64,000 bases of DNA from Pseudomonas frederiksbergensis (GTDB lineage Bacteria; Pseudomonadota; Gammaproteobacteria; Pseudomonadales; Pseudomonadaceae). Shown in pieces: positions 20,058-46,189 of the stretch (the stretch's first letter is position 1; each line of letters starts with the position of its first letter). The translations under genes were made by a program, and so were the position numbers. The notes under the pieces were generated by a model, which worked only from the letters and a program-made list of their open reading frames with translations, was not told the origin of the DNA and did not search any database. Location: positions 124,001 to 188,000 of the forward strand of contig NZ_MOBR01000020.1 of assembly GCF_003732705.1 (NCBI RefSeq). Direction: 5' to 3'.

Positions 20058-23000
20058 ATGGTTAACCACGTAAAGGAACTGCCCGTGGACTTGAGATCTG
20101 TTGTCGCCCCGATTTTCCGCGTTTGTCCTCTTTTTCTCGCTGTCCGCCTCGGTATCGTTGGGGTGTTTGTCACCCTCAGTCCTCAAGCCATGGCCGCCTG
20201 TACCCCCGGTAGTCCGACGGCGGGCGGGACGGTGACGTGTAGCGGCGTGCCGTCGCTGCCGCTGTTCCTCAACACCTTTTCCAGTGCGGTGAATGACCTG
20301 ACCGTCAACGTCGGGTCGGCGGCGCAACTGAACGCGACCCTGGGCGGGCAGGTGCTGAACCTCACGGGCAACAACATCACCCTGAACAACTCGGGGTTGA
20401 TTGACCCGGCGCTGCTCGGCGCGGTGACGGCCCTGAGCGCGGGCGCGGTGATCGGCAACGCGGGGGCCTCGGTGATGAACATCACCAACGCCGCCACCGG
20501 GATCATCCGCGGCACCGGCGACTTGCTCGGCGTCAACCTGGCCAGTCTCAACGGCATGGCGCTGAACCTCAACAACAGCGCCGGCGGCAGCACCAACATC
20601 GTCAACAACGGCACCATCGGCTCGACGGCTCTGCTGAACGTCACGCTGTTTTCCGCCGACACCCCGATCGTCGCGGCGCGCGGCGGCGCCCAGGTCAACG
20701 TGATCAACGCCGGCACCATCAACGGCCGGATGGCCTTCGAGACCTCGGCCAGCGGCAACACCTTCGTCAACTCCGGCACCATCGCCGGCGGTGTGTCGAT
20801 GGGCGACGGCAGCACCAACACCTTCACCGCGATTACCGGTTCGACCATCACTGCCGGTGGCGGCATCGGCCTGGCCCTGGGCGGATTGATCGGCGTCAAC
20901 CTGACCTTCGCCCCGACCGGCCAGATCGACGGCGGCGCTGGCGGTATCAACTCACTGATCCTGCAAAACCCGATCGGCATCGGCGGCGGCACCTCCGGGG
21001 TCGGCACTGTTTCGAGCGCCAACTACGTCAACTTCAACAACCTGACGATCAACAGTGGCACCTGGACCTTGCAAGGTCCGCTGATCAGCGGCAGCACCAC
21101 GCTCAATGGCGGTATCGCCCAGTTCAACAACAGCGCGACCTTCGGCAGCGGCGTCCTGACTGTCAATGGCGGCGGGTTGCAGGCCAGCACCGGCGGCTTG
21201 TCGTTGAGCAACCTGATCAACGTGGGCGCCGCCGGCCTGTTACTGCAGGGCACCAACGCCATCACTCTCGGCAACGTGATCAGCGGCAGTGGCGGCATCA
21301 CCAAGAACGGCACCGGCCAACTGATTCTCAACGGCGCCAACACCTATTTGGGCAACACCACCCTCAACGGCGGCTCGGTGCAACTGGGCAATAACCAGGC
21401 GTTCAGCGCCGGCACGGTGACGTTCGGCGGTTCCACCGTGTTGCAGGCGCCGGGCACCATTACCCTGAACAACAACATCGTGCTCAACAGCGCCATCGGC
21501 ACGTCCGGTGTCGGCAGCCTGACCCTGGCGGGGTTGATCAGCGGTGCGGGCAGTATTTCGAAAAACGGCAGCGGCACCCTGGCCCTGACCGGCAACAACA
21601 CCGGCTATACCGGCAGCACCGACCTCAACGCCGGGACCCTGAGCCTGGCGAATAACAATGCGCTCGGCAGCGGCTCGCTGAACGTCAACGCGGCGGCGAG
21701 TCTCAATACCACCTCCGGCGTGACCCTGAACAACTCGGTGGCGCTGAACGGCAACCTGACCGTCGTCGGCAGCAACAACCTGACCCTCAATGGCCTGGTG
21801 TCCGGCACCAGCGGCTTGATCAAGAATGGCCTGTCGACCCTGACCCTGACCGGCAACAACACCTACCAAGGCCCGACCTCGCTGAACGCTGGCGCGCTGG
21901 TGTTGGCCTCCAACACCGCGCTGGGCACGGGCGCGCTGAACGTGGCAGCCGGCACTTCCCTGGACACCAACCTCGCCGTGACCCTGGCCAACGCGATCAA
22001 TCTCGGCGGCGACCTGACCCTCGGCGGTACTCAGGCACTGGGCCTGACCGGCGCGATCAATGGCGCGGGCAGCCTGATCAAGAACGGCAGCGCTGCGCTG
22101 AATCTCAGCGGCAACAACGGCTACGCCGGCAACACCACACTGAACGCCGGCACCCTGATTCTCGGCTCCAACACGGCGCTGGGCCTGGGCACCTTGAACA
22201 CGGCGGCCGGCACCACACTCGATGCCAGCTCCACCGTAGCAGTGGCCAACGCGGTCAACACCACCGGTGACCTTACCCTCGGCGGTACCGCCAACCTGAC
22301 CCTCGGTGGCGTAGTCGGCGGCACGGGCGGGCTGATCAAGAACGGCGCGGCCAACCTGACCCTCAACGGCGCCAACACCTTCCTCGGCAACACCACCCTG
22401 AACGCGGGCACCCTGACCGTGGGCAACGCCAATGCCTTGAGCGGCGGCGTGCTGACCGTGGCCGGTTCTTCGACGCTGGACAGCAGCGCCGGTGTCGCTA
22501 TCGCAAACAACATTGCGATGAACGCTGACCTGAGCGTCGGCGGCACTAACCAACTGACCCTCGACGGCGTGCTCAGCGGCACCAACCAGTTGATCAAGAA
22601 CGGCGCGGCCAACCTGACGCTGAACGGCGTCAACACCTTCGCCGGCGGCACCACCCTGAATGCCGGCAGCATCACCGTCGGCAATGCCGACGCACTGAGC
22701 ACCGGCGCCCTGACCGTGGGCGGCGCGAGCACGCTCACCGGCAGCTCGGCCCTGGCCCTGGCCAACGCCATCACCCTCAACGCCAACCTGACCACCGGCG
22801 GTGCCAATGCACTGACCCTCGACGGCACCATCGCTGGCGCGGGCGGGCTGATCAAAACCGGCGCTTCGAGCCTGACCCTCACCGGCGCCAACACCTATTC
22901 CGGCACCACGGCGCTGAATGCCGGCACCTTGATCGTCGGTTCGAATACCGCAATCGGTAGCGGCGCGTTGAACGCGTCCGGCGGTACTACCCTCGATGCG

Positions 23001-26000
23001 AGCACCGCCACCACCCTGGCCAACGCGGTCAACCTCGGCGGCAACCTGACCCTCGGCGGCACTAATGCGCTGATCCTCAACGGTGCCGTCAGCGGTATCG
23101 GCGGTTTGATCAAAAACGGCGCGGCTGACCTGACCCTCAACCACGCCAACAATTACCTCGGCTCCACGGCGCTGAACAACGGCACGCTGATCGTCGGTGC
23201 CAGTGGTGCCTTGGGCGCCGGTGTGTTGAACGCGGCGGCCAACACCACCCTCGATAGCAACACTGCCGTGAGCCTGAGCAACCAGGTGAACCTGGCCGGT
23301 GCCTTTAACGTCGGCGGCACCGCGGACCTGACCCTGACCGGGCTGGTCAACGGCGCGGGCAACCTGGTGAAAAACGGTACCGGCAATCTGGTGCTCGGTG
23401 GTGCCAACGGCTTCCTCGGCGGCACCACGTTGAACGCCGGCACCCTGACCGTCGGCAACGGCTCGGCACTGGGCCTCGGCGGTTTGACCGTCGGCGGCGC
23501 GGCGACCCTCGACAGCAACGCCCCGGTCAGCCTGGGCAACAACGTAGCGCTGAATGCCGACCTGACCGTCGGCGGCACCTCGAACCTGACATTGGGCGGC
23601 GTCGTCAGCGGCACCAATCAACTGATCAAAAATGGCGCGGGCAACCTGACCCTCAATGGCGTCAACACTTATCAAGGCAACACCACCCTGAATGCCGGCA
23701 CCCTGACCTTGGGTAACGGCACGGCACTGGGCACTGGCGCACTGATCGTCGGCGGCACGTCGAGCCTGGATAACAGCGCAGCCTTCAGCGTGGCCAACGC
23801 CGTAACCCTGAACGCCGATCTGAACTTCGCCGGCAACAACAACCTGAACCTCGCAGGCGTCATCGATGGCGCCGCTGCGCTGAATAAAAACGGTCTGTCC
23901 GACCTGACCCTCAGTGGCAATAACAGCTTCACCGGGGCTTTGAACATTCTGTCCGGCAGCGTCACCGCCGCCAGCACCGGGGCGCTGGGCAACACCTCCG
24001 GCGCCAACGTCAGTGCCGGCGCCAGCCTCAACCTGGGCACCGATGCCAGCCTCGCCGGCCTCAGCGGCAGTGGTGATGTGCTGATCGGTTCGGGCAACAC
24101 CTTGTCGGTGGGCGGCGTCAATACCACCAGCACCTTCGACGGCGGCCTGTCCGGCCCTGGCGGCTTGACCAAAGTCGGCACCGGCACCCTTAACCTCACC
24201 GGTATCAACGGCCTCACCGGCAACACTGCAGTCAACGGCGGCACCCTGGACCTCAGCGGTTCCCTGGGCAGTGCCAATGTCAACGTCAACACTGGCGCGA
24301 CCTTGACCGGCACCGGTTCGGTACTGGGCGCATTGAACGTGGCCAACGGCGGTCACCTGGGCCTGAGCAGCGGCAACACGCTGTCGGTCGGTTCGCTGGC
24401 CCTGAACAGCACCTCCAATATGGACGTCGCCCTCGGCACACCGTCCACCAACTCGCTGCTCAACATCGGCGGCAACCTGACCCTGGACGGCTTGCTCAAC
24501 GTCAGTGATGCCGGTGGTTTCGGTGTCGGTGTGTATCGCCTGATCAACTACACCGGCAGTCTGCTGAACCTGGGCATGAACGTCGGTGCGACCCCGATCG
24601 GCTACAGCCTGGCGGACCTGGCGCTGCAAACGGCGGTCGGCAACCAGATCAATTTGCTGGTGACCGCGCCTAACGCGAACCTGCGTTTCTGGGATGGCAG
24701 CCAGACCATACCAAACGGTTCGGTGGACGGCGGCAACGGTACCTGGAGTGCCGGCAGTACCAACTGGACTTCGGTTGATGGCTTGACCAATCAGACCTGG
24801 GCCAGCGATTTCGCGATCTTCCAAGGCACGGCGGGTAACGTGACGGTGCTCGGTCCGCAGACCTTCACCGGCATGCAGTTCGTCACCGACGGCTACAACC
24901 TGCTGACCGGCGCGGCGGGGAAACTCACCGCCGTCAATGGCACCAGCGGCAATACGGCGATCCGGGTCGATCCGGGCTCCACGGCGACCATCAGCGTCGC
25001 CATCGACGGCGCCGGTACCCTGGCCAAACTCGACAGCGGCACCCTGGTGCTCAACGGCGCCAACAGCTACACCGGCGGCACTTTGCTTAATGGCGGCACA
25101 CTCGTTGTGGGCAGCAACACGGCACTGGGCAGCGGTGTACTGACCACCGCTTCGGGCACCACTCTGGACAGCAACGTCGCCGTCACCCTGGGCAATGCCG
25201 TCGATCTGGCGAGTAACCTGAATATCGGTGGCAGCAATGCCCTGACCCTCAACGGTGCGATCAGTGGCGTGGGCGGTCTGGTCAAGGCCGGCGGGTCCAA
25301 CCTGACCCTCGGTGGCAACAACAGCTTCCTCGGCCCAGTGAGCCTGCTTTCCGGTGGCCTGGTGCTGGCCTCCGACTCGGCCCTCGGCGCCGGTGCGCTG
25401 AACGCCGCCAACGCCACCACCCTGGACGCCGCGACGGCGGTGACCGTCGGCAACGTGATCAATCTGGCCGGTAACCTCAACGTCGCTGGCAGCGCTGACC
25501 TGACCCTCGCCGGTGCCGTCAACGGTGCCGGTAGCCTGAGCAAAACCGGCGCGGCCAACCTGGTGCTCAATGGTTTCAACGGCTTCCTCGGCGGTGTCGA
25601 TCTGAACGCCGGGACCCTGACAGTCGGCAATGCTTCAGGCCTGGGCCTGGGCAACCTGACCGTCAGTGGCGCCTCGACGCTGGACAACAACACGGTACTG
25701 AGCCTGGCCAATAACGTTGGCCTGAACGCCAGCGTGGCGGTGGGCGGCAGCAATGACCTGACCCTCGGCGGCGTGATCAGCGGCGCTGGCGGCCTGAGCA
25801 AGAATGGCGCGGCGAACCTGACGCTCAACGGCGTCAACGTCTATCAGGGCGATACGACCCTCAACGCCGGCACCCTGACCCTCGGCAACGCCGCAGCACT
25901 GGGCACCGGTGCCTTGACTGTCGCTGGGGCTTCGACACTGGATAACAGTTCGGCGCTCAGCCTGGCCAACGACGTCAATGTCAACGCGGCGCTGAACGTG

Positions 26001-29000
26001 GCCGGGGTCAATAACCTAACCTTGGCGGGTGCCGTCGGCGGCGCCGGAACCCTGAGCAAAAACGGCGCGGCAGACCTGACCCTCAGCGGCACCAACACCT
26101 TCAGCGGCACCTTCGACGTGCTCGGCGGCAGCTTGAGCACCACCAGCGCCACCGCCCTGGGCAACAACGCCGGGGTCAATCTTGGGACCGGCACCAGCCT
26201 TAACCTCGGCGCGTCCGGCAGCCTCGCCAGCTTGAGCGGCACCGGCACGGCGCTGGTCGGCGCTGGCAACACCCTGAGCATCGGCGGCAACAATGCCAGC
26301 AGTCTCTTTGACGGTGTGCTCGACGGCAGCGGTTCGCTCGATAAACTCGGCAGCGGCACCTTCAATCTCACCGGCATCAATAGCCTGACCGGCGACACCA
26401 GCGTTAACGGCGGCACCCTGAATGTCAGCGGTTCTCTGGCCAGCGCCAACGTTGCGGTCAATAACGGCGGCACATTGGCTGGCAGCGGCAGCCTGCTTGG
26501 CGCGGTGAATGTCGCCGATGGCGGTCACGTCGCACTGGCCACCGGCAGCGCCTTGTCGGTGGGCTCGCTGGCCTTGAGTGGCAACTCCAACCTCGATGTC
26601 GGGCTCGGTGCTCCGGTGTCGGGCGGCGGTAATGCGCTGATCAATGTCGGCGGTAACCTGACTCTCGACGGTAACCTCAACGTCAGCGACATCGGCGGTT
26701 TCGGCAGCGGTGTGTATCGCATCATCAACTACACCGGTGCCCTGACCGACAACGGTCTGGTCGTCGGCACCGTGCCGGGCAGCGTATCGCCGGGCAATCT
26801 GCAAGTGCAAACCGCCGTGGGCAGCCAGGTCAATCTGCTGGTCACCTCACCGAACACCACCGTGCAGTTCTGGGACGGCGCGCAAGCCGTCGGTAACGGC
26901 GCAATCGACGGCGGCAACGGCACCTGGGCCAGTGGCAACACCAACTGGACCAATGTCGATGGCACGGTCAATCTGGGCTGGGCCAACAGTTTCGCGGTAT
27001 TCCAGGGCACGGCGGGCACCGTCACGGTTGACGGCGCGCAGAGCATCACTGGCATGCAATTCGTCACCGACGGCTACAGCCTGGTGAACGGCACGGCGGG
27101 CGCACTGACCCTGGTCAATGGCGGCTTGGGCAACGCGACTTTCCGCGTCGATCCGAACGCCACCGCGACCGTCGGCGTGGCGATCAATGGCGCGGGCACT
27201 CTGGGCAAATACGACACCGGCACCCTGGTGCTCAACGGCCTCAACGGTTACACCGGCGGCACCGCGCTGAACGGCGGCACGTTGGTCGTGGGCAATGACG
27301 CGGCGCTGGGCAGCGGTGTCCTCACCGCCGCCAACGGCACCACGCTGGACAGCAACACCGCGGTCAGCCTGGCTAACGCGGTGGCATTGAACGGTGGGTT
27401 GAGCGTCGCGGGTTCCAACGCGCTGACCCTCGGTGGTGTCGTCAGCGGCACCGGCAGCCTGATCAAGAATGGCGCTTCGAGCCTGACCCTCAACGGCAGC
27501 AACACCTACGCCGGCGGTACGCAGTTGAATGCCGGCTCGTTGATCCTCGGCAACAACAGCGCCATCGGCACGGGTGCACTCGGCGTCGGTGGCAATGCGC
27601 AACTGGACAGCACCGCAGCCCTGCAATTGGCTAACGCCATCAACCTCACCGGGCAGTTGACCCTGGCCGGCACTCAGGCCACCACCCTCAGTGGCGTGAT
27701 CGGCGGCACCGGCAGTCTGGTGAAAAACGGCAGCGGCACACTGTTGCTCAGCGGCACCAATACCTACAGCGGCGGCACCACCCTCAACGCCGGCACCACC
27801 AGCGGCAACACCACCAGCCTGCAAGGCGCGATCCTCAACAACGCCGCGCTGGTATTCGAGCAATCCAACGACGGCACTTACACCGGCAACCTCACCGGCA
27901 ACGGTACGCTGACTAAAAACGGCACCGGGGAATTGCTGCTTACCGGCACCAACGGCCTCACTGGCGACACCAATGTCCAGGCCGGTTCGTTGCTGGTCAA
28001 CGGCACGCTCAACAGCGCGAATGTGAACGTGGCGAGCGGGGCGAAAATCGGCGGCTCGGGCCAAATCGCTGGCGCGGTCCAACTGGCCAGCGGTGCAACC
28101 CTGGTTGGCGGTGGCAGCGTCACGCCATTGTCGTTCGGCTCCCTGGCATTGGCGTCGGGCACTAACCTGGACTTCAGCCTCGGTTCGGCGACCAGCTCGA
28201 CCAACGTGGTCAACGTCGCCGGTAACCTGACCCTCGACGGCACGCTGAACGTCAGCGATGCCGGCGGCTTCGGCACCGGCGTCTATCAACTGTTCCGCTA
28301 CGGCGGCGACCTGACCGACAACGGCCTGACCTACGGCACGTTGCCGGGCGGTGTATTGCCGGCGAGCCTGACCCTGCAAACCGCGCTGGCCAATCAGGTC
28401 AACTTGCTGGTGCAAAGCAGCCAGGGTGAAGTGCAGTTCTGGAACGGCGGCAAAACCAACGCTGACGGCACGATCAGCGGCGGCGACGGCACCTGGGGCT
28501 CGAGCACCAACTGGACGGACGCCGGTGGTACGGCGAGCCAGGGTTCGGCCCGTCGGTTCGCCGTATTTGGCGGCCAGGGCGGCACTGTGACGGTTGCTGG
28601 CAACCAGGGCTTCACCGGGTTGCAAGTCCTCGACAGCGGTTACCGCCTGGTGCCGGGCGCAGATGGCAGCCTGACCCCTATCAATGCGGCCGATGGCAGC
28701 CTGGCTGCCGTGCGGATCAACTCCGGCGTCACCACTGAAATCTCGGCGCCTCTGGTCGGCACCGGCGGCATCGAGAAACTCGACTCCGGCACCCTGGTGC
28801 TCAGCGGCGCCAACACCTACAGCGGCGGCACCACCGTCAGCGGCGGTACGCTGGTCGGTAATAGCACCAGTCTGCAGGGCAGCATCCTCAACAATGCGCG
28901 GGTGCTGTTTGCCCAGGCCAATAACGGCTTTTTCAACGGCGTACTCAGCGGCACCGGTGATCTGGTCAAACAAGGCAGCGGTTCGCTGCTGTTAGAGGGT

Positions 29001-42929: not shown

Positions 42930-44021
42930 ATGCACGCCCACCGATTGATCATGAGTCTCGCTGCCTTGCTGGTCCTGGCCGGTTGCGGTACCCGGCAGAC
43001 CCAGGAAGCACCGGCCCGCAAGCCTGCTGAGGTCAAGGCGCAGATCGTGCGTCTGTTGCCGGCGAAAACCGTCGACCGTGAGGGTTGGGCGACGGATATC
43101 TACGCAGCGTTTGCCGCTCAGGAGATTTCGCCGACCACGCAAAACCTGTGTGCGGTGCTGGCCGTCACCGAGCAGGAATCAACCTTTCAGGTAGATCCAA
43201 CCGTGCCGGGTTTGGGCAAGATCGCCCGGGACGAAATCGACCGCCGCGCCGCCAAGGCGCATATCCCGAGCCTGTTGGTGAGCGGTGCATTGCAGGTCAG
43301 CTCGCCCACTGGCAAAAGCTACAGCGACCGGCTGAACGCCGCCCGCAGTGAAAAAGAACTGAGCGCGATTTTCGATGACTTCATCGGCATGGTGCCCATG
43401 GGCAAGACCCTGTTCGGTGAATTCAACCCGGTGCACACCGCCGGGCCTATGCAGGTCAGCATCGAATTCGCCGAGCAAGAAACCCGCAATTATCCTTACC
43501 CGATCACCGGCTCGATCCGCCATGAAGTGTTCAGTCGTCGCGGCGGCATGTATTTCGGCATTGCCCATTTGCTCGGTTATCCGGTGAGCTACACACAGCC
43601 GTTGTATCGCTTTGCCGATTTCAATGCCGGTTGGTACGCCAGCCGTAATGCCGCGTTTCAAAACGCCGTCAGCCGCGTGTCGGGCATCCCGCTGGCGCTG
43701 GACGGTGACTTGATTCGCTACGATTCAATCATGCCCGGCACCACGGAACTGGCGGTGCGCACCCTCGGCAAGCAACTGGGCATGCGCAATCCGACGATTC
43801 GCGATCAATTGGAAACGGGTAAAAGCCTGGAGTTCGAAGAGACGAGGCTCTACCAAAAGGTCTTCGCCCTGGCGGAGAAGGCTGAAGGCCGGGCGTTACC
43901 CCGAGCGGTGTTGCCGGGGATTGTGCTGGAAAGCCCGAAAATCACCCGCAAACTCACAACGGCCTGGTTCGCCAAACGGGTCGATGAGCGGTATCAGCGG
44001 TGTATGGCGAAGGGGCGTTGA
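42930..44021 (+). CDS. DUF1615 lipoprotein
   Basis: 363 aa. A lipoprotein signal peptide ends in the lipobox LAGC, with Cys19 the lipidated residue. The remaining sequence (TQNLCAVLAVTEQESTFQVD, HTAGPMQVSIEFAEQ, FADFNAGWYASRNAAFQ) matches the DUF1615 family of proteobacterial lipoproteins. The EQES and AGPMQVS motifs look like a lysozyme-type or soluble lytic transglycosylase active-site arrangement, so a peptidoglycan role is possible but unproven. The gene is monocistronic and ends before a strong terminator. Confidence 0.85.
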   Translation: MHAHRLIMSLAALLVLAGCGTRQTQEAPARKPAEVKAQIVRLLPAKTVDREGWATDIYAAFAAQEISPTTQNLCAVLAVTEQESTFQVDPTVPGLGKIARDEIDRRAAKAHIPSLLVSGALQVSSPTGKSYSDRLNAARSEKELSAIFDDFIGMVPMGKTLFGEFNPVHTAGPMQVSIEFAEQETRNYPYPITGSIRHEVFSRRGGMYFGIAHLLGYPVSYTQPLYRFADFNAGWYASRNAAFQNAVSRVSGIPLALDGDLIRYDSIMPGTTELAVRTLGKQLGMRNPTIRDQLETGKSLEFEETRLYQKVFALAEKAEGRALPRAVLPGIVLESPKITRKLTTAWFAKRVDERYQRCMAKGR

Positions 44022-44068: not shown

Positions 44069-44102
44069 TAAAAAAACCCGGCTGATGAGGCCGGGTTTTT
44101 CG
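44069..44102. terminator. Bidirectional rho-independent terminator
   Basis: AAAAAACCCGGC / GCCGGGTTTTTT stem with loop TGATGAG, between the convergent DUF1615 and repeat-protein genes. It can serve both. Confidence 0.88.
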
Positions 44103-44128: not shown

Positions 44129-44524
44129 TTATGCGGTGCGGTTCTGGATCAATCGATCGGATCCACCTTCGGCAACGCGTTTCTCGATCAGACGATCGGA
44201 ACCACCTTCAGCCACGCGTTTCTCGATCAGACGATCGGAACCACCTTCAGCAACGCGTTTCTCGATCAGACGATCGGAACCACCTTCAGCCACGCGTTTC
44301 TCGATCAGACGATCGGAACCACCTTCAGCAACGCGTTTCTCGATCAGACGATCGGAACCACCTTCAGCAACGCGTTTCTCGATCAGACGATCCGAACCAC
44401 CTTCAGCCACACGGCTTTCAATCAGACGATCCGAGCCGCCTTCAGCGATCATGGTGTGAGAAGCGGCAAAAGCGTTAACTGCAAAAACCGAGAAAGCGAT
44501 GCTGAGAAGGATTTGGCGTTTCAT
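44129..44524 (-). CDS. Exported protein of eight tandem 13-residue repeats
   Basis: 131 aa. A signal peptide of about 20 residues (MKRQILLSIAFSVFAVNAFA) is followed by a 5-residue linker and then only repeats: one IAEGGSDRLIESR, six VAEGGSDRLIEKR and one VAEGGSDRLIQNR, ending TA. No cysteine and no second domain. It should be periplasmic or secreted. I do not recognise a characterised function; similar AEGGSDR-repeat proteins probably occur in other Pseudomonas. Each unit ends in a basic pair (KR in six), so the protein could be a polyprotein of short peptides or an elongated repeat fold. A GGAG ribosome site lies about 10 bp upstream. Confidence 0.8.
   Translation of the reverse strand: MKRQILLSIAFSVFAVNAFAASHTMIAEGGSDRLIESRVAEGGSDRLIEKRVAEGGSDRLIEKRVAEGGSDRLIEKRVAEGGSDRLIEKRVAEGGSDRLIEKRVAEGGSDRLIEKRVAEGGSDRLIQNRTA
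44145..44450. repeat. 39-bp coding tandem repeat, about eight copies
   Basis: The unit, beginning ACCTTCAGCCACGCG and ending CAGACGATCGGA on the plus strand, repeats with few changes. Two variants (CAGCCACGCG and CAGCAACGCG) partly alternate, indicating that two-unit blocks were also copied. Because 39 is a multiple of three, other reading frames stay open too. Confidence 0.9.
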
Positions 44525-44733
44525 GATGGTGTGCTCCGGGGTGTTTATTGGTTGGTATGGAGGCGATGTTACGCCCCGGATTTTTTATGAGAACTTCATT
44601 GACGTGATGGTGACCATCGACGGCAATGATGGTTGGCGCGAGGCACTTATTGCGAGGTTGATGATGCGGTCGTCGGCTGGGCCCGATGGGGTCGGTGGCC
44701 GGTTCTACACTTTGCAGCACTGGGCTGATTGAT

Positions 44734-44783: not shown

Positions 44784-45380
44784 TCAATCGCAGTGTTCGG
44801 GACGATCACGCTCGATCAGCGACAGATACTGTTCACGCGTACCGCCATTCAACGGTTTGATCAGGATGTCCACGCTATGGCTGAGTCTGCCCATCTCGAT
44901 CCCTTCGCGTGTTCGAACCTCGGCAAAACCGAGCGCACGCCAGAAGCGCCCGGCCTTCACGTTGCTGCGCACCACGCACAGGCGCAACCAATCGGCGCCA
45001 TTGGCGCGGGCCCAGGTTTCAACGTCGCGATACAGCGTCTGCGCGATGCCAGAGCCATGCAGGTCATTGGCAATGATGAACAGACCGATGTGCCACACCT
45101 TCGGCGCCAGCAAGTCCGAGACGAACTGCAACGCCGCCACTAACGGACGATCCTCGGCCTGATAGCCCAGCATCCAGTTTTTACTGAAGCTCCAGCCGGG
45201 TGGCAGTTCGCCGAGCAGTTCTTCGCGGGCCTTGTCGGGGCCCGCGGGTTCACCTTCGACGATCAGAAAGTAATCCGGATTGGCCTCGAAGAAGGCTTGC
45301 AGAAGCGTTGCATCCTCGACGGTCAGTTCACGCACGCCTATTTGCGAGGCGCTGCACAGTGGAAGTGCCGGTGTCTGCAT
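44784..45380 (-). CDS. GNAT-family N-acetyltransferase
   Basis: 198 aa. The acetyl-CoA site is the motif-A segment HIGLFIIANDLHGSGIAQTL (DLHGSGIA fits the Q/R-x-x-G-x-G/A rule), with LRLCVVRSNVKAGRFWRALG as motif B. The N-terminus has VRELTVEDATLLQAFFEANP, usual for the fold. The ATG at 45378-45380 follows GGAGACCCTC. It transfers an acetyl group to an unknown small molecule or protein. The DUF4349 gene lies 14 bp upstream on the same strand, so the two are likely cotranscribed. Confidence 0.86.
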   Translation of the reverse strand: MQTPALPLCSASQIGVRELTVEDATLLQAFFEANPDYFLIVEGEPAGPDKAREELLGELPPGWSFSKNWMLGYQAEDRPLVAALQFVSDLLAPKVWHIGLFIIANDLHGSGIAQTLYRDVETWARANGADWLRLCVVRSNVKAGRFWRALGFAEVRTREGIEMGRLSHSVDILIKPLNGGTREQYLSLIERDRPEHCD

Positions 45381-45394
45381 GAGGGTCTCCTGGC

Positions 45395-46189
45395 TCAGGT
45401 GCGCCGACGAACAAACTTGCGCCACAGCCAGACCCACAGCATCAACAGCGGAAAGGCCAGGATCAGGAACGGCAGCGCGTAACTGCCTTTTTCCAATGCG
45501 TCGACGGCGCCATCGGCCAGGTTGTCCAGCAAGTTGCTGAACGCTTGGCTCAGGTGCGACGAGCGACTGCTGGCGCCGGTCGGCTGGAACGACAGGGTCA
45601 CCCGATTGGTGTCGAGTCGGCGCTGATGCCCGGCGGCCACCTGGGCCAGGGCTTGCAGGTCGTTTTCGATGCCGGCCTGTTCCTTGCTCAGGGCGATCAG
45701 GTCGGTGACGCTGATGTCTTTGCGGCTGGCCAGTTGGTCCAGGCGCTGTTGCTGGGCCTGGAGGCGTTCCTGACGGCGGCGGGTGTCGTCCACGGCATCG
45801 GCCAGGTCTTCGGCGGTGGTGACTCGCTGGCCCATTTCACCGCCCTCGGCGGCCATGGCGACCAACGGCTCGACACCGACGGGGGCGATGCGCAAGGTGA
45901 TCTCGGCCCGGCCGGCGCCTTGCTCGATGCGCAACACATTACAGGCGCCGAAGCGCGCGGTTTCGCAAGCCTCGCGGGTGGCCTGCAAGCGCGGCGCGAT
46001 TTGCGCTTGTGGCAGCAATAACTGCACATCATGCTCATAGGCGAGCATCGCGCCGCCCCGTCCTTGTTCACCGGCTAGACTGGCCGATGACGGCCGTTCG
46101 CTCGGCGAGCAGCCGCCCAAGGCCAGGCAGGCCAGAACAAACCAATAGACGCGAGGCAGTGAGGCGGGTTTGCCATCCGGTTGGCGCAT
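45395..46189 (-). CDS. DUF4349 lipoprotein
   Basis: 264 aa. Lipobox LALGGC with Cys27; a conserved middle portion; a coiled coil with many Gln/Arg (RRRQERLQAQQQRLDQLASR, about 135-185); and a C-terminal membrane helix ALPFLILAFPLLMLWVWLW followed by RKFVRRRT. This is the DUF4349 layout: lipid anchor at one end and membrane span at the other. Function unknown. It precedes the GNAT gene. Confidence 0.82.
   Translation of the reverse strand: MRQPDGKPASLPRVYWFVLACLALGGCSPSERPSSASLAGEQGRGGAMLAYEHDVQLLLPQAQIAPRLQATREACETARFGACNVLRIEQGAGRAEITLRIAPVGVEPLVAMAAEGGEMGQRVTTAEDLADAVDDTRRRQERLQAQQQRLDQLASRKDISVTDLIALSKEQAGIENDLQALAQVAAGHQRRLDTNRVTLSFQPTGASSRSSHLSQAFSNLLDNLADGAVDALEKGSYALPFLILAFPLLMLWVWLWRKFVRRRT

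Follow-up and report, generated by a model that had tools for sequence, protein, structure and literature searches.

What does a secreted protein made almost entirely of one repeated 13-residue unit do in Pseudomonas? The question is raised by a gene in a 64,000-nt stretch of the Pseudomonas frederiksbergensis genome (contig NZ_MOBR01000020.1; hereafter the window). A preliminary description of this DNA had proposed a peptide precursor cut at Lys-Arg pairs or, alternatively, a stacked repeat fold, and had concluded that no function can be assigned. We found a gene family that is real, under selection and widespread, and whose promoters give a strong lead on its regulation.

The repeat gene and its surroundings

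The reading frame, its coordinates, its strand and its repeat count had been described exactly (Table 1), and the unit series (IAEGGSDRLIESR, 6 x VAEGGSDRLIEKR, VAEGGSDRLIQNR) confirmed that six of the eight units end in Lys-Arg. Secretion was also borne out by a signal peptide judged by eye, with a KR n-region, a hydrophobic core and AFA, which are conserved in the family alignment. TRF reported a period of 39 with 7.9 copies and 92% matches (44138-44446, score 492), and a 39-mer search at up to 3 mismatches found six occurrences in the array against 0 in 100 shuffles; the array is therefore far beyond chance. The near-identical 39-bp units bear out the tandem expansion that had been proposed, and the partly alternating variants noted among them are real: units of otherwise nearly the same DNA sequence start with either GTG or GTT. 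Within the window, only 258-bp arrays at 22-26 kb had TRF scores above 492. Positions 22333-28846 hold long 258-bp tandem repeats and shorter ones, which resemble those of large autotransporter-like surface proteins. Weak Pfam matches of the repeat protein to Rep_fac_C and PheRS_DBD2, and matches to TIGR03620/YD_repeat, were taken as chance on a repetitive query.

Table 1. Features of the repeat gene, its promoter region and its neighbours in the window
Feature	Position	Strand	Basis
Gene of 131-aa secreted tandem-repeat protein	44129..44524	-	ATG start, single ORF
Signal peptide, residues 1-20 (MKRQILLSIAFSVFAVNAFA)	44465..44524	-	Sec/SPI type by eye
Eight in-register 13-residue units, 39 bp each	44138..44449	-	TRF, 39-mer search, sequence
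MexT-type LysR box ATCATTGCCGTCGATGGTCACCAT	44607..44630	-	0 mismatches to ATCA-N5-GTCGAT-N4-ACYAT
Second strictly conserved promoter element CAATGAAGTTCTC	44589..44601	-	94 aligned upstreams
-10-like TAACAT, starting 47 nt before ATG	44566..44571	-	Conserved in 94 upstreams
Ribosome-binding-site-like GGAG	44534..44537	-	Conserved GGAGCAC in 94 upstreams
DUF1615 lipoprotein gene, convergent neighbour, syntenic marker	42930..44021	+	Pfam DUF1615, E 1e-152
GNAT acetyltransferase, upstream neighbour, unrelated	44784..45437	-	Not conserved with repeat gene
Hairpin CCCGGC-loop-GCCGGG with flanking A and T runs	44070..44100	.	Read from sequence

The repeat gene forms a compact unit, consisting of its own promoter region, one open reading frame and a terminator-like hairpin, and has dispersed paralogues. 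The hairpin is probably a bidirectional terminator between the repeat gene and the DUF1615 gene, and a like hairpin was found after the paralogues in the same genome. The automatic terminator scan reported none at 44070-44100, possibly owing to the continuation of the stem into the T run. Similarity between the copies on contigs C20 and C4 of this genome reaches about 100 nt upstream of the gene and about 65 nt downstream of it, and blastn detected no more. Of the 79 named loci, 33 hold both DUF1615 and the repeat gene, and a relative of the GNAT acetyltransferase occurred beside the loci of this genome and one other locus only (L033).

A mobile cassette or phage origin was considered and rejected, as there was no match among 50,697 phage records and a single weak plasmid match, to a record annotated 'hypothetical protein'. 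The mobile-cassette reading is also opposed by the similarity between the C20 and C4 copies, which stops near the gene, and by the recurrence of DUF1615 beside it.

Relatives in the Pseudomonadaceae

Related stretches confirmed by tblastn numbered 219 in genome contigs, and 79 loci were kept, every one with a title naming Pseudomonas. At E<=1e-5, 144 of 149 genomes of the genus had a match (this genome included), often with several copies each. The genome of the window itself carries four copies of the window type, of which the one on C39 is degenerate, together with four divergent members on C3, C14, C46 and C24. When a divergent protein (L211) was used as the query at E<=1e-4, matches were found in 35 of 119 Pseudomonadaceae genomes, representing 9 of 19 genera. 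Outside the Pseudomonadaceae, the family profile matched 0 of 273 other genomes drawn from the class at E<=1e-6, leaving the genome of the window as the sole match in that draw of 274. On these searches, the gene is a member of a Pseudomonadaceae family of predicted secreted proteins with a 13-residue period and the core [VI]AE[GD]G[SA][DE]R, and the window type, with its unit VAEGGSDRLIxxR, is the fluorescens-group branch, multicopy in many genomes. The verdict that no function can be assigned, and the orphan status that it implied, thus failed in the face of hundreds of relatives. In the open-licence literature, we found no published description of the family as such.

The copy number of units differs between species among the 79 named loci: it ranged from 4 to 12 in 82 closed genes from these loci, and from 7 to 12 in the 33 genes whose loci also hold DUF1615. 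An open frame was present in 79 of 79 loci and 2 of 84 genes ran off the contig, figures to be read with the facts that the locus search favours intact copies and that a frame cut inside the array would score merely as a shorter gene. Two paralogues in the genome of the window depart from the common form. One (L097, C24:107008-107658) encodes a 257-aa secreted protein of ASDGSDHVGAGAV units, in which the 13-residue period is kept and His replaces Arg, and it has no box of the kind described below. The other (L093, on C39) has kept the signal peptide and the promoter block, while its inner units have degenerated (SDAVAATETDPLF); it is an array losing its core.

In genomes of the P. fluorescens group, a common product label for the family is 'phage infection protein'. 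This label would mislead, and no link of the family to phage infection was found in the phage records searched. The genes of that name in strains In5 and 2P24 are likened to the family by product label alone: the In5 gene is given as 32-fold up against Rhizoctonia solani (PMC5557065), and the 2P24 protein is given as having a Sec/SPI signal (PMC8490769).

Constraint on the unit and structure of the chain

In order to describe conservation of the unit, we counted 909 units in 107 non-identical window-type genes, the gene of the window included. Four positions were nearly fixed (G5 in 909, D7 in 908, R13 in 905 and E3 in 890), although the pattern that defined a unit fixes A2 and L9 and restricts positions 4, 5, 7 and 13, which somewhat overstates conservation there; positions 1, 3, 6, 8, 10, 11 and 12 were free. 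The ratio pN/pS, from 905 units, was 0.13 for 3,524 unit pairs within genes and 0.19 for 19,816 random pairs between genes, and fell to 0.08 without positions 10-12, the least constrained positions being 12 (0.67) and 10 (0.65). Since G5, D7 and R13 are near-fixed while synonymous sites vary, the unit is under selection, and the purifying selection on it that the preliminary description had proposed to look for was thus found. The 50 divergent members share the core [VI]AE[GD]G[SA][DE]R, with positions 10-13 variable. In the 7.1-Mb genome of the window, a degenerate DNA pattern for AEGGxDR had 30 matches, all inside family genes, and its reversed control had 0.

The strict spacing of the units speaks for a folded repeat protein, either a short-unit solenoid or an array ordered on a ligand, that would serve as a scaffold or as a specific binder of an envelope ligand. 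The interval was 13 residues in 756 of 765 cases in the window type and, between cores, in 269 of 356 cases in the divergent members, a count that includes members found via the promoter pattern and in which 12 and 14 were the main exceptions; the near-invariance of G5, D7 and R13 also fits a fold. Against this, the family tolerates spacings of 12 to 15 residues as well as a changing number of units, and AlphaFold2 (24 sequences) modelled only the signal helix, with nothing structured after it (mean pLDDT 36.5, pTM 0.16). A model of such low confidence is compatible with disorder; it proves nothing and leaves room for a fold. The stacked fold of the preliminary description, for which a structure prediction had been suggested, accordingly gained no support and was not disproved either, and we regard a folded repeat protein as unlikely. 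Disorder of the mature chain is weakly indicated. The 101 distinct window-type mature proteins contain no Cys or Trp, and their median count is one for His and zero for Met; about 38% of their residues are charged and 16% are Arg, and 59% of the proteins are classed as disordered by the charge-hydropathy line.

A MexT-type box upstream of the family genes

Alignment of 94 upstream regions gave two strongly kept blocks, the outer of which matches the MexT box; in the window, this box starts 106 nt before the ATG. The full consensus ATCA-N5-GTCGAT-N4-ACYAT is reportedly that of Tian et al. 2009. The window-type full box contains within it the nod box ATYA(N7)YGAT that is given for MexT in PMC11432991. 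From the position of the -10-like TAACAT, the box would lie about 65 nt before the transcription start, which is the usual position for a LysR activator. A sigma-70 scan of the window promoter found no consensus promoter. Readings of the promoter by eye as PhoB-like and AlgU-like were dropped once the LysR box was seen.

To measure how regularly the box occurs, we scored 155 distinct upstream regions, of which 25 belonging to genes found by the promoter pattern only were dropped against circularity, leaving 130 chosen through protein similarity or a protein motif. Of the window-type genes, 97 of 99 had a box with up to 3 mismatches 95-120 nt before the ATG, as did 25 of 30 divergent members; the single MFNF-type gene did not. 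In the controls, such a box was found anywhere within 250 nt upstream for 18 of 970 control ORFs of >=150 aa, called mechanically in these loci, and in 5 of 775 Markov-shuffled upstream regions. The members are linked by descent, so that p-values overstate their independence, and we therefore relied more on the divergent subtypes. In other genera, most divergent relatives retain the box, with much the same spacing to the start codon.

Searches for the box with up to 1 mismatch were then compared with searches for the reversed pattern. In 12 genomes there were 32 sites against 3; in the 14 of 30 loci that were read, six sites preceded family genes, two preceded a small secreted protein of the MKSIIG type and six preceded neither. 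Eleven genomes of the genus g15 gave 55 sites against 1, and 30 of these were read, with 19 preceding family genes, seven an ArsR-like gene and four neither. The genome of the window had five sites (reversed control, 0): before the window gene, before the C3 family gene, before a small secreted protein on C14, on C37 without a family gene, and on C46 inside an open frame. Among its other copies, the two on C4 have boxes with 2 mismatches and the degenerate C39 copy has one with 4; no box was found before its C14, C46 and C24 members, nor before the PtrA-like gene on C8.

Several of these sites lie apart from the family. The C37 site (L208, 155382-155405) matches the MexT-type consensus exactly, and no family gene adjoins it. 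On C14 (L219, C14:223955) and in locus L202, a box with 1 mismatch lies about 100 nt before a small secreted protein, MKSIIG...VAENRPEFGSKYQR, whose C-terminal tail is common to the MFNF-type AEGGxDR protein encoded just before it. The ArsR-like gene has a box about 100 nt upstream in seven of eleven g15 genomes (L253, L257, L259, L263, L277, L281 and L282), with HTH_5 tested for one of them, L253. It may correspond to PA4354, which is reported as a MexT target in PMC12607905 and PMC3848899.

Co-occurrence with MexT and the reader of the box

A MexT query sequence matched PDB 6l33 'MexT protein' with E 2e-115. The orthologue in the genome of the window (C46:186152-187063) is 93% identical to it. 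At E<=1e-90, MexT was matched in 75 of 119 Pseudomonadaceae genomes, with 74-94% identity for the best match per genome. All 35 genomes with an L211-type member were among these 75, and 0 of the 44 genomes without MexT had one (Fisher p 2e-9 across 119 related genomes). Small genomes may lack both for reasons of size. The remaining 40 genomes have MexT without an L211-type match, and at least one of them (G136) matches the window protein. In genus g15, mexT and a family gene share a contig, at a distance of 7.8 to 23.6 kb, in 11 of the 12 genomes listed, and in the twelfth (G233) the two are on different contigs. In three of four g15 stretches, with genes named by eye, mexE-, mexT- and mexS-like genes stand in a row, and the family gene lies some way beyond them; the fourth (L289) has mexE beside mexT, and no mexS-like gene was seen adjoining. 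The full box is approached with 2-3 mismatches in g15 mexS promoters and with 5 at best in mexE promoters (three stretches), the latter having the exact short nod box. In the genome of the window, the best full-box match in the mexT-mexS gap has 4 mismatches.

Published work on P. aeruginosa offers a counterpart to the repeat gene. PA4881 is described as an uncharacterised tandem repeat protein under MexT control, whose mutant showed no added peroxide sensitivity (PMC3557286). With tandem repeats, MexT control (published for PA4881, and indicated by the box for the repeat gene) and no assigned function, the two are alike. PA4881 is thus already known as a MexT-regulated tandem repeat protein, and the repeat gene is added to that kind. 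Deletion of mexT in PAO1 is reported to lower PA4881 by 6.5, PA3229 by 6.1, PA4623 by 5.8, PA1744 by 4.6 and PA2486 by 4.5 on the log2 scale (PMC12607905). All five are given as induced by Z-ethylthio enynone (PMC10848761), which is taken to be an electrophile. For PA4881, values of -10.68 and -9.13 are listed in parS and parR mutants (PMC3848899; columns taken as log2). The five genes are among the strongest MexT-dependent genes in PMC12607905 and PMC3848899, where they appear as hypothetical or by number only. They are likened to the family by description, not by repeat length or core, and the same promoter box is inferred for them. If these proteins share the 13-residue core, a harmless soil Pseudomonas with few copies would be a clean place to find their function.

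The box may be read by another protein besides MexT or instead of it, because the genome of the window encodes three MexT-like LysR proteins (93, 67 and 60%) and a further LysR protein, PA2206, is reported to bind the PA4881 promoter in vitro and to raise it 7.7-fold (PMC3557286). The family would then be the same, with the box read by a MexT paralogue or a PA2206 orthologue, and the gene would belong to an oxidative-stress rather than to the MexT regulon. We find this quite unlikely, since PA4881 is the top entry among the genes with reduced expression after mexT deletion (PMC12607905), co-occurrence with a close MexT orthologue was 35 of 35, and the family gene is near mexT in genus g15. The repeat gene very probably belongs to the MexT regulon, as judged from its promoter.

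A proposed role in the MexT stress response

We consider that the product is probably an envelope protein of the MexT (electrophile, thiol and antimicrobial) stress response and that it works as an intact multivalent chain, probably a disordered one. Following the published P. aeruginosa work, MexT would, as for PA4881, switch the repeat gene on under electrophiles, disulfide or nitrosative stress and some antimicrobials, alongside the MexEF-OprN pump and reductases that include XenB. The product would be exported via Sec to the periplasm and would act there as an intact, abundant and mostly unfolded chain, rich in arginine, acidic residues and glycine, that carries many copies of a short binding element with the core [VI]AE[GD]G[SA][DE]R and could shield or buffer envelope components during stress. 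We propose that the number of units sets valency or dose, which could account for the gain and loss of units around an unchanging core. Of these claims, the assignment to the MexT regulon is the most certain; the least certain is that the chain works intact and by multivalency, which we hold only tentatively, as somewhat short of an even case. The MexT-type box before most relatives makes the function of the repeat protein testable.

Relation to PtrA

The protein of the window matched NCBIfam NF041599, named 'co-regulatory protein PtrA N-terminal domain-containing', with E 1e-23 and 82.9 bits against a cut-off of 31, in eight stretches. A PtrA-type periplasmic protein for copper or zinc tolerance has this score in its favour, as well as the motif AEGG[GAS]DR, which opens the mature part in 26 of the 30 best PtrA-type loci read; PtrA itself is published as periplasmic and copper-linked. 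The score was reached, however, by summing repeats, and the rest of PtrA is absent: the best stretch covers positions 6-30 of 46, which are the signal peptide and the heptad, whereas PtrA-type proteins match positions 1-45 or 1-46 in one stretch. PtrA membership proper was therefore rejected, and the label 'PtrA domain' misleads for the family, since the common part is the signal peptide and heptad, not the whole domain. PtrA (PA2808, NF041599) is alike in having a signal peptide and an AEGG[GAS]DR heptad and in being a small exported stress protein, induced by copper or zinc; it is unlike in having one heptad copy followed by an unrelated tail.

The promoters and neighbours of the two groups also look different. 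CopR-like sites of the form TGACA...TGTAAT were seen by eye in many PtrA-type upstream regions, and a copA-like gene adjoins three of four PtrA-type loci inspected by eye, whereas in the window promoter no CopR-like site was seen by eye and the LysR box is present. The lack of Cys and the low median counts of His (one) and Met (none) in window-type mature proteins also speak against metal tolerance of the PtrA type, which we judge very unlikely for the repeat protein.

The heptad common to PtrA and the repeat family would reflect either common descent or a re-used motif. A doubtful but wider reading is that AEGGxDR is a lineage-specific element of exported Pseudomonas stress proteins, present in one copy in PtrA-type and some DUF2790 proteins (copper) or in about 4-15 copies in MexT-controlled arrays including PA4881 and PA2486, with the same envelope partner and with array length tuning valency. 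PA2486, which is PtrC, was placed among these arrays because of its position next to mexT. If this reading is true, the 'type III repressors' PtrA and PtrC and the MexT-regulon repeat proteins would be variants of one system. Another locus (L135) encodes a DUF2790 protein in which, as in PtrA, the AEGGxDR heptad immediately follows the signal peptide; L136-L138 and L156 appear similar.

The Lys-Arg pairs

The preliminary description held that a trypsin-like protease cutting at Lys-Arg would release identical 13-mers; with a trypsin-like or Kex2-like enzyme at the basic pairs, these could be signals or antimicrobials. Repeat peptide precursors of the yeast alpha-factor type are cut at basic pairs, and the Pseudomonas family resembles them in its secreted tandem units, some of which end in KR. 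It differs in that the processing site is not conserved. Besides the KR ends in the window protein, R13 is kept throughout the window type (where the unit pattern admits only R, H, L and G at position 13), and in 42 of 101 window-type proteins more than 70% of the units have a basic pair. Nevertheless, a basic pair is absent altogether from 33 of the 101 proteins, and the weakly constrained position 12 was N in 369 of the 909 units, R in 344, S in 137, K in just 50 and Q in 6. In many units of divergent members the R13 position holds D, I, V or Q, and the residue 12 places past the unit start was Arg in 214 of 406 units of the divergent subtypes, a count that puts 12- and 14-residue units out of register. 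R8 would be cleaved too, and the immediate neighbours, the DUF1615 lipoprotein and the GNAT acetyltransferase, are neither protease nor exporter. As the precursor reading depends on Lys-Arg pairs that are not conserved, it was rejected as highly improbable: by these unit counts, the product is not a Lys-Arg-processed peptide precursor, and selection keeps the unit, not the Lys-Arg pair.
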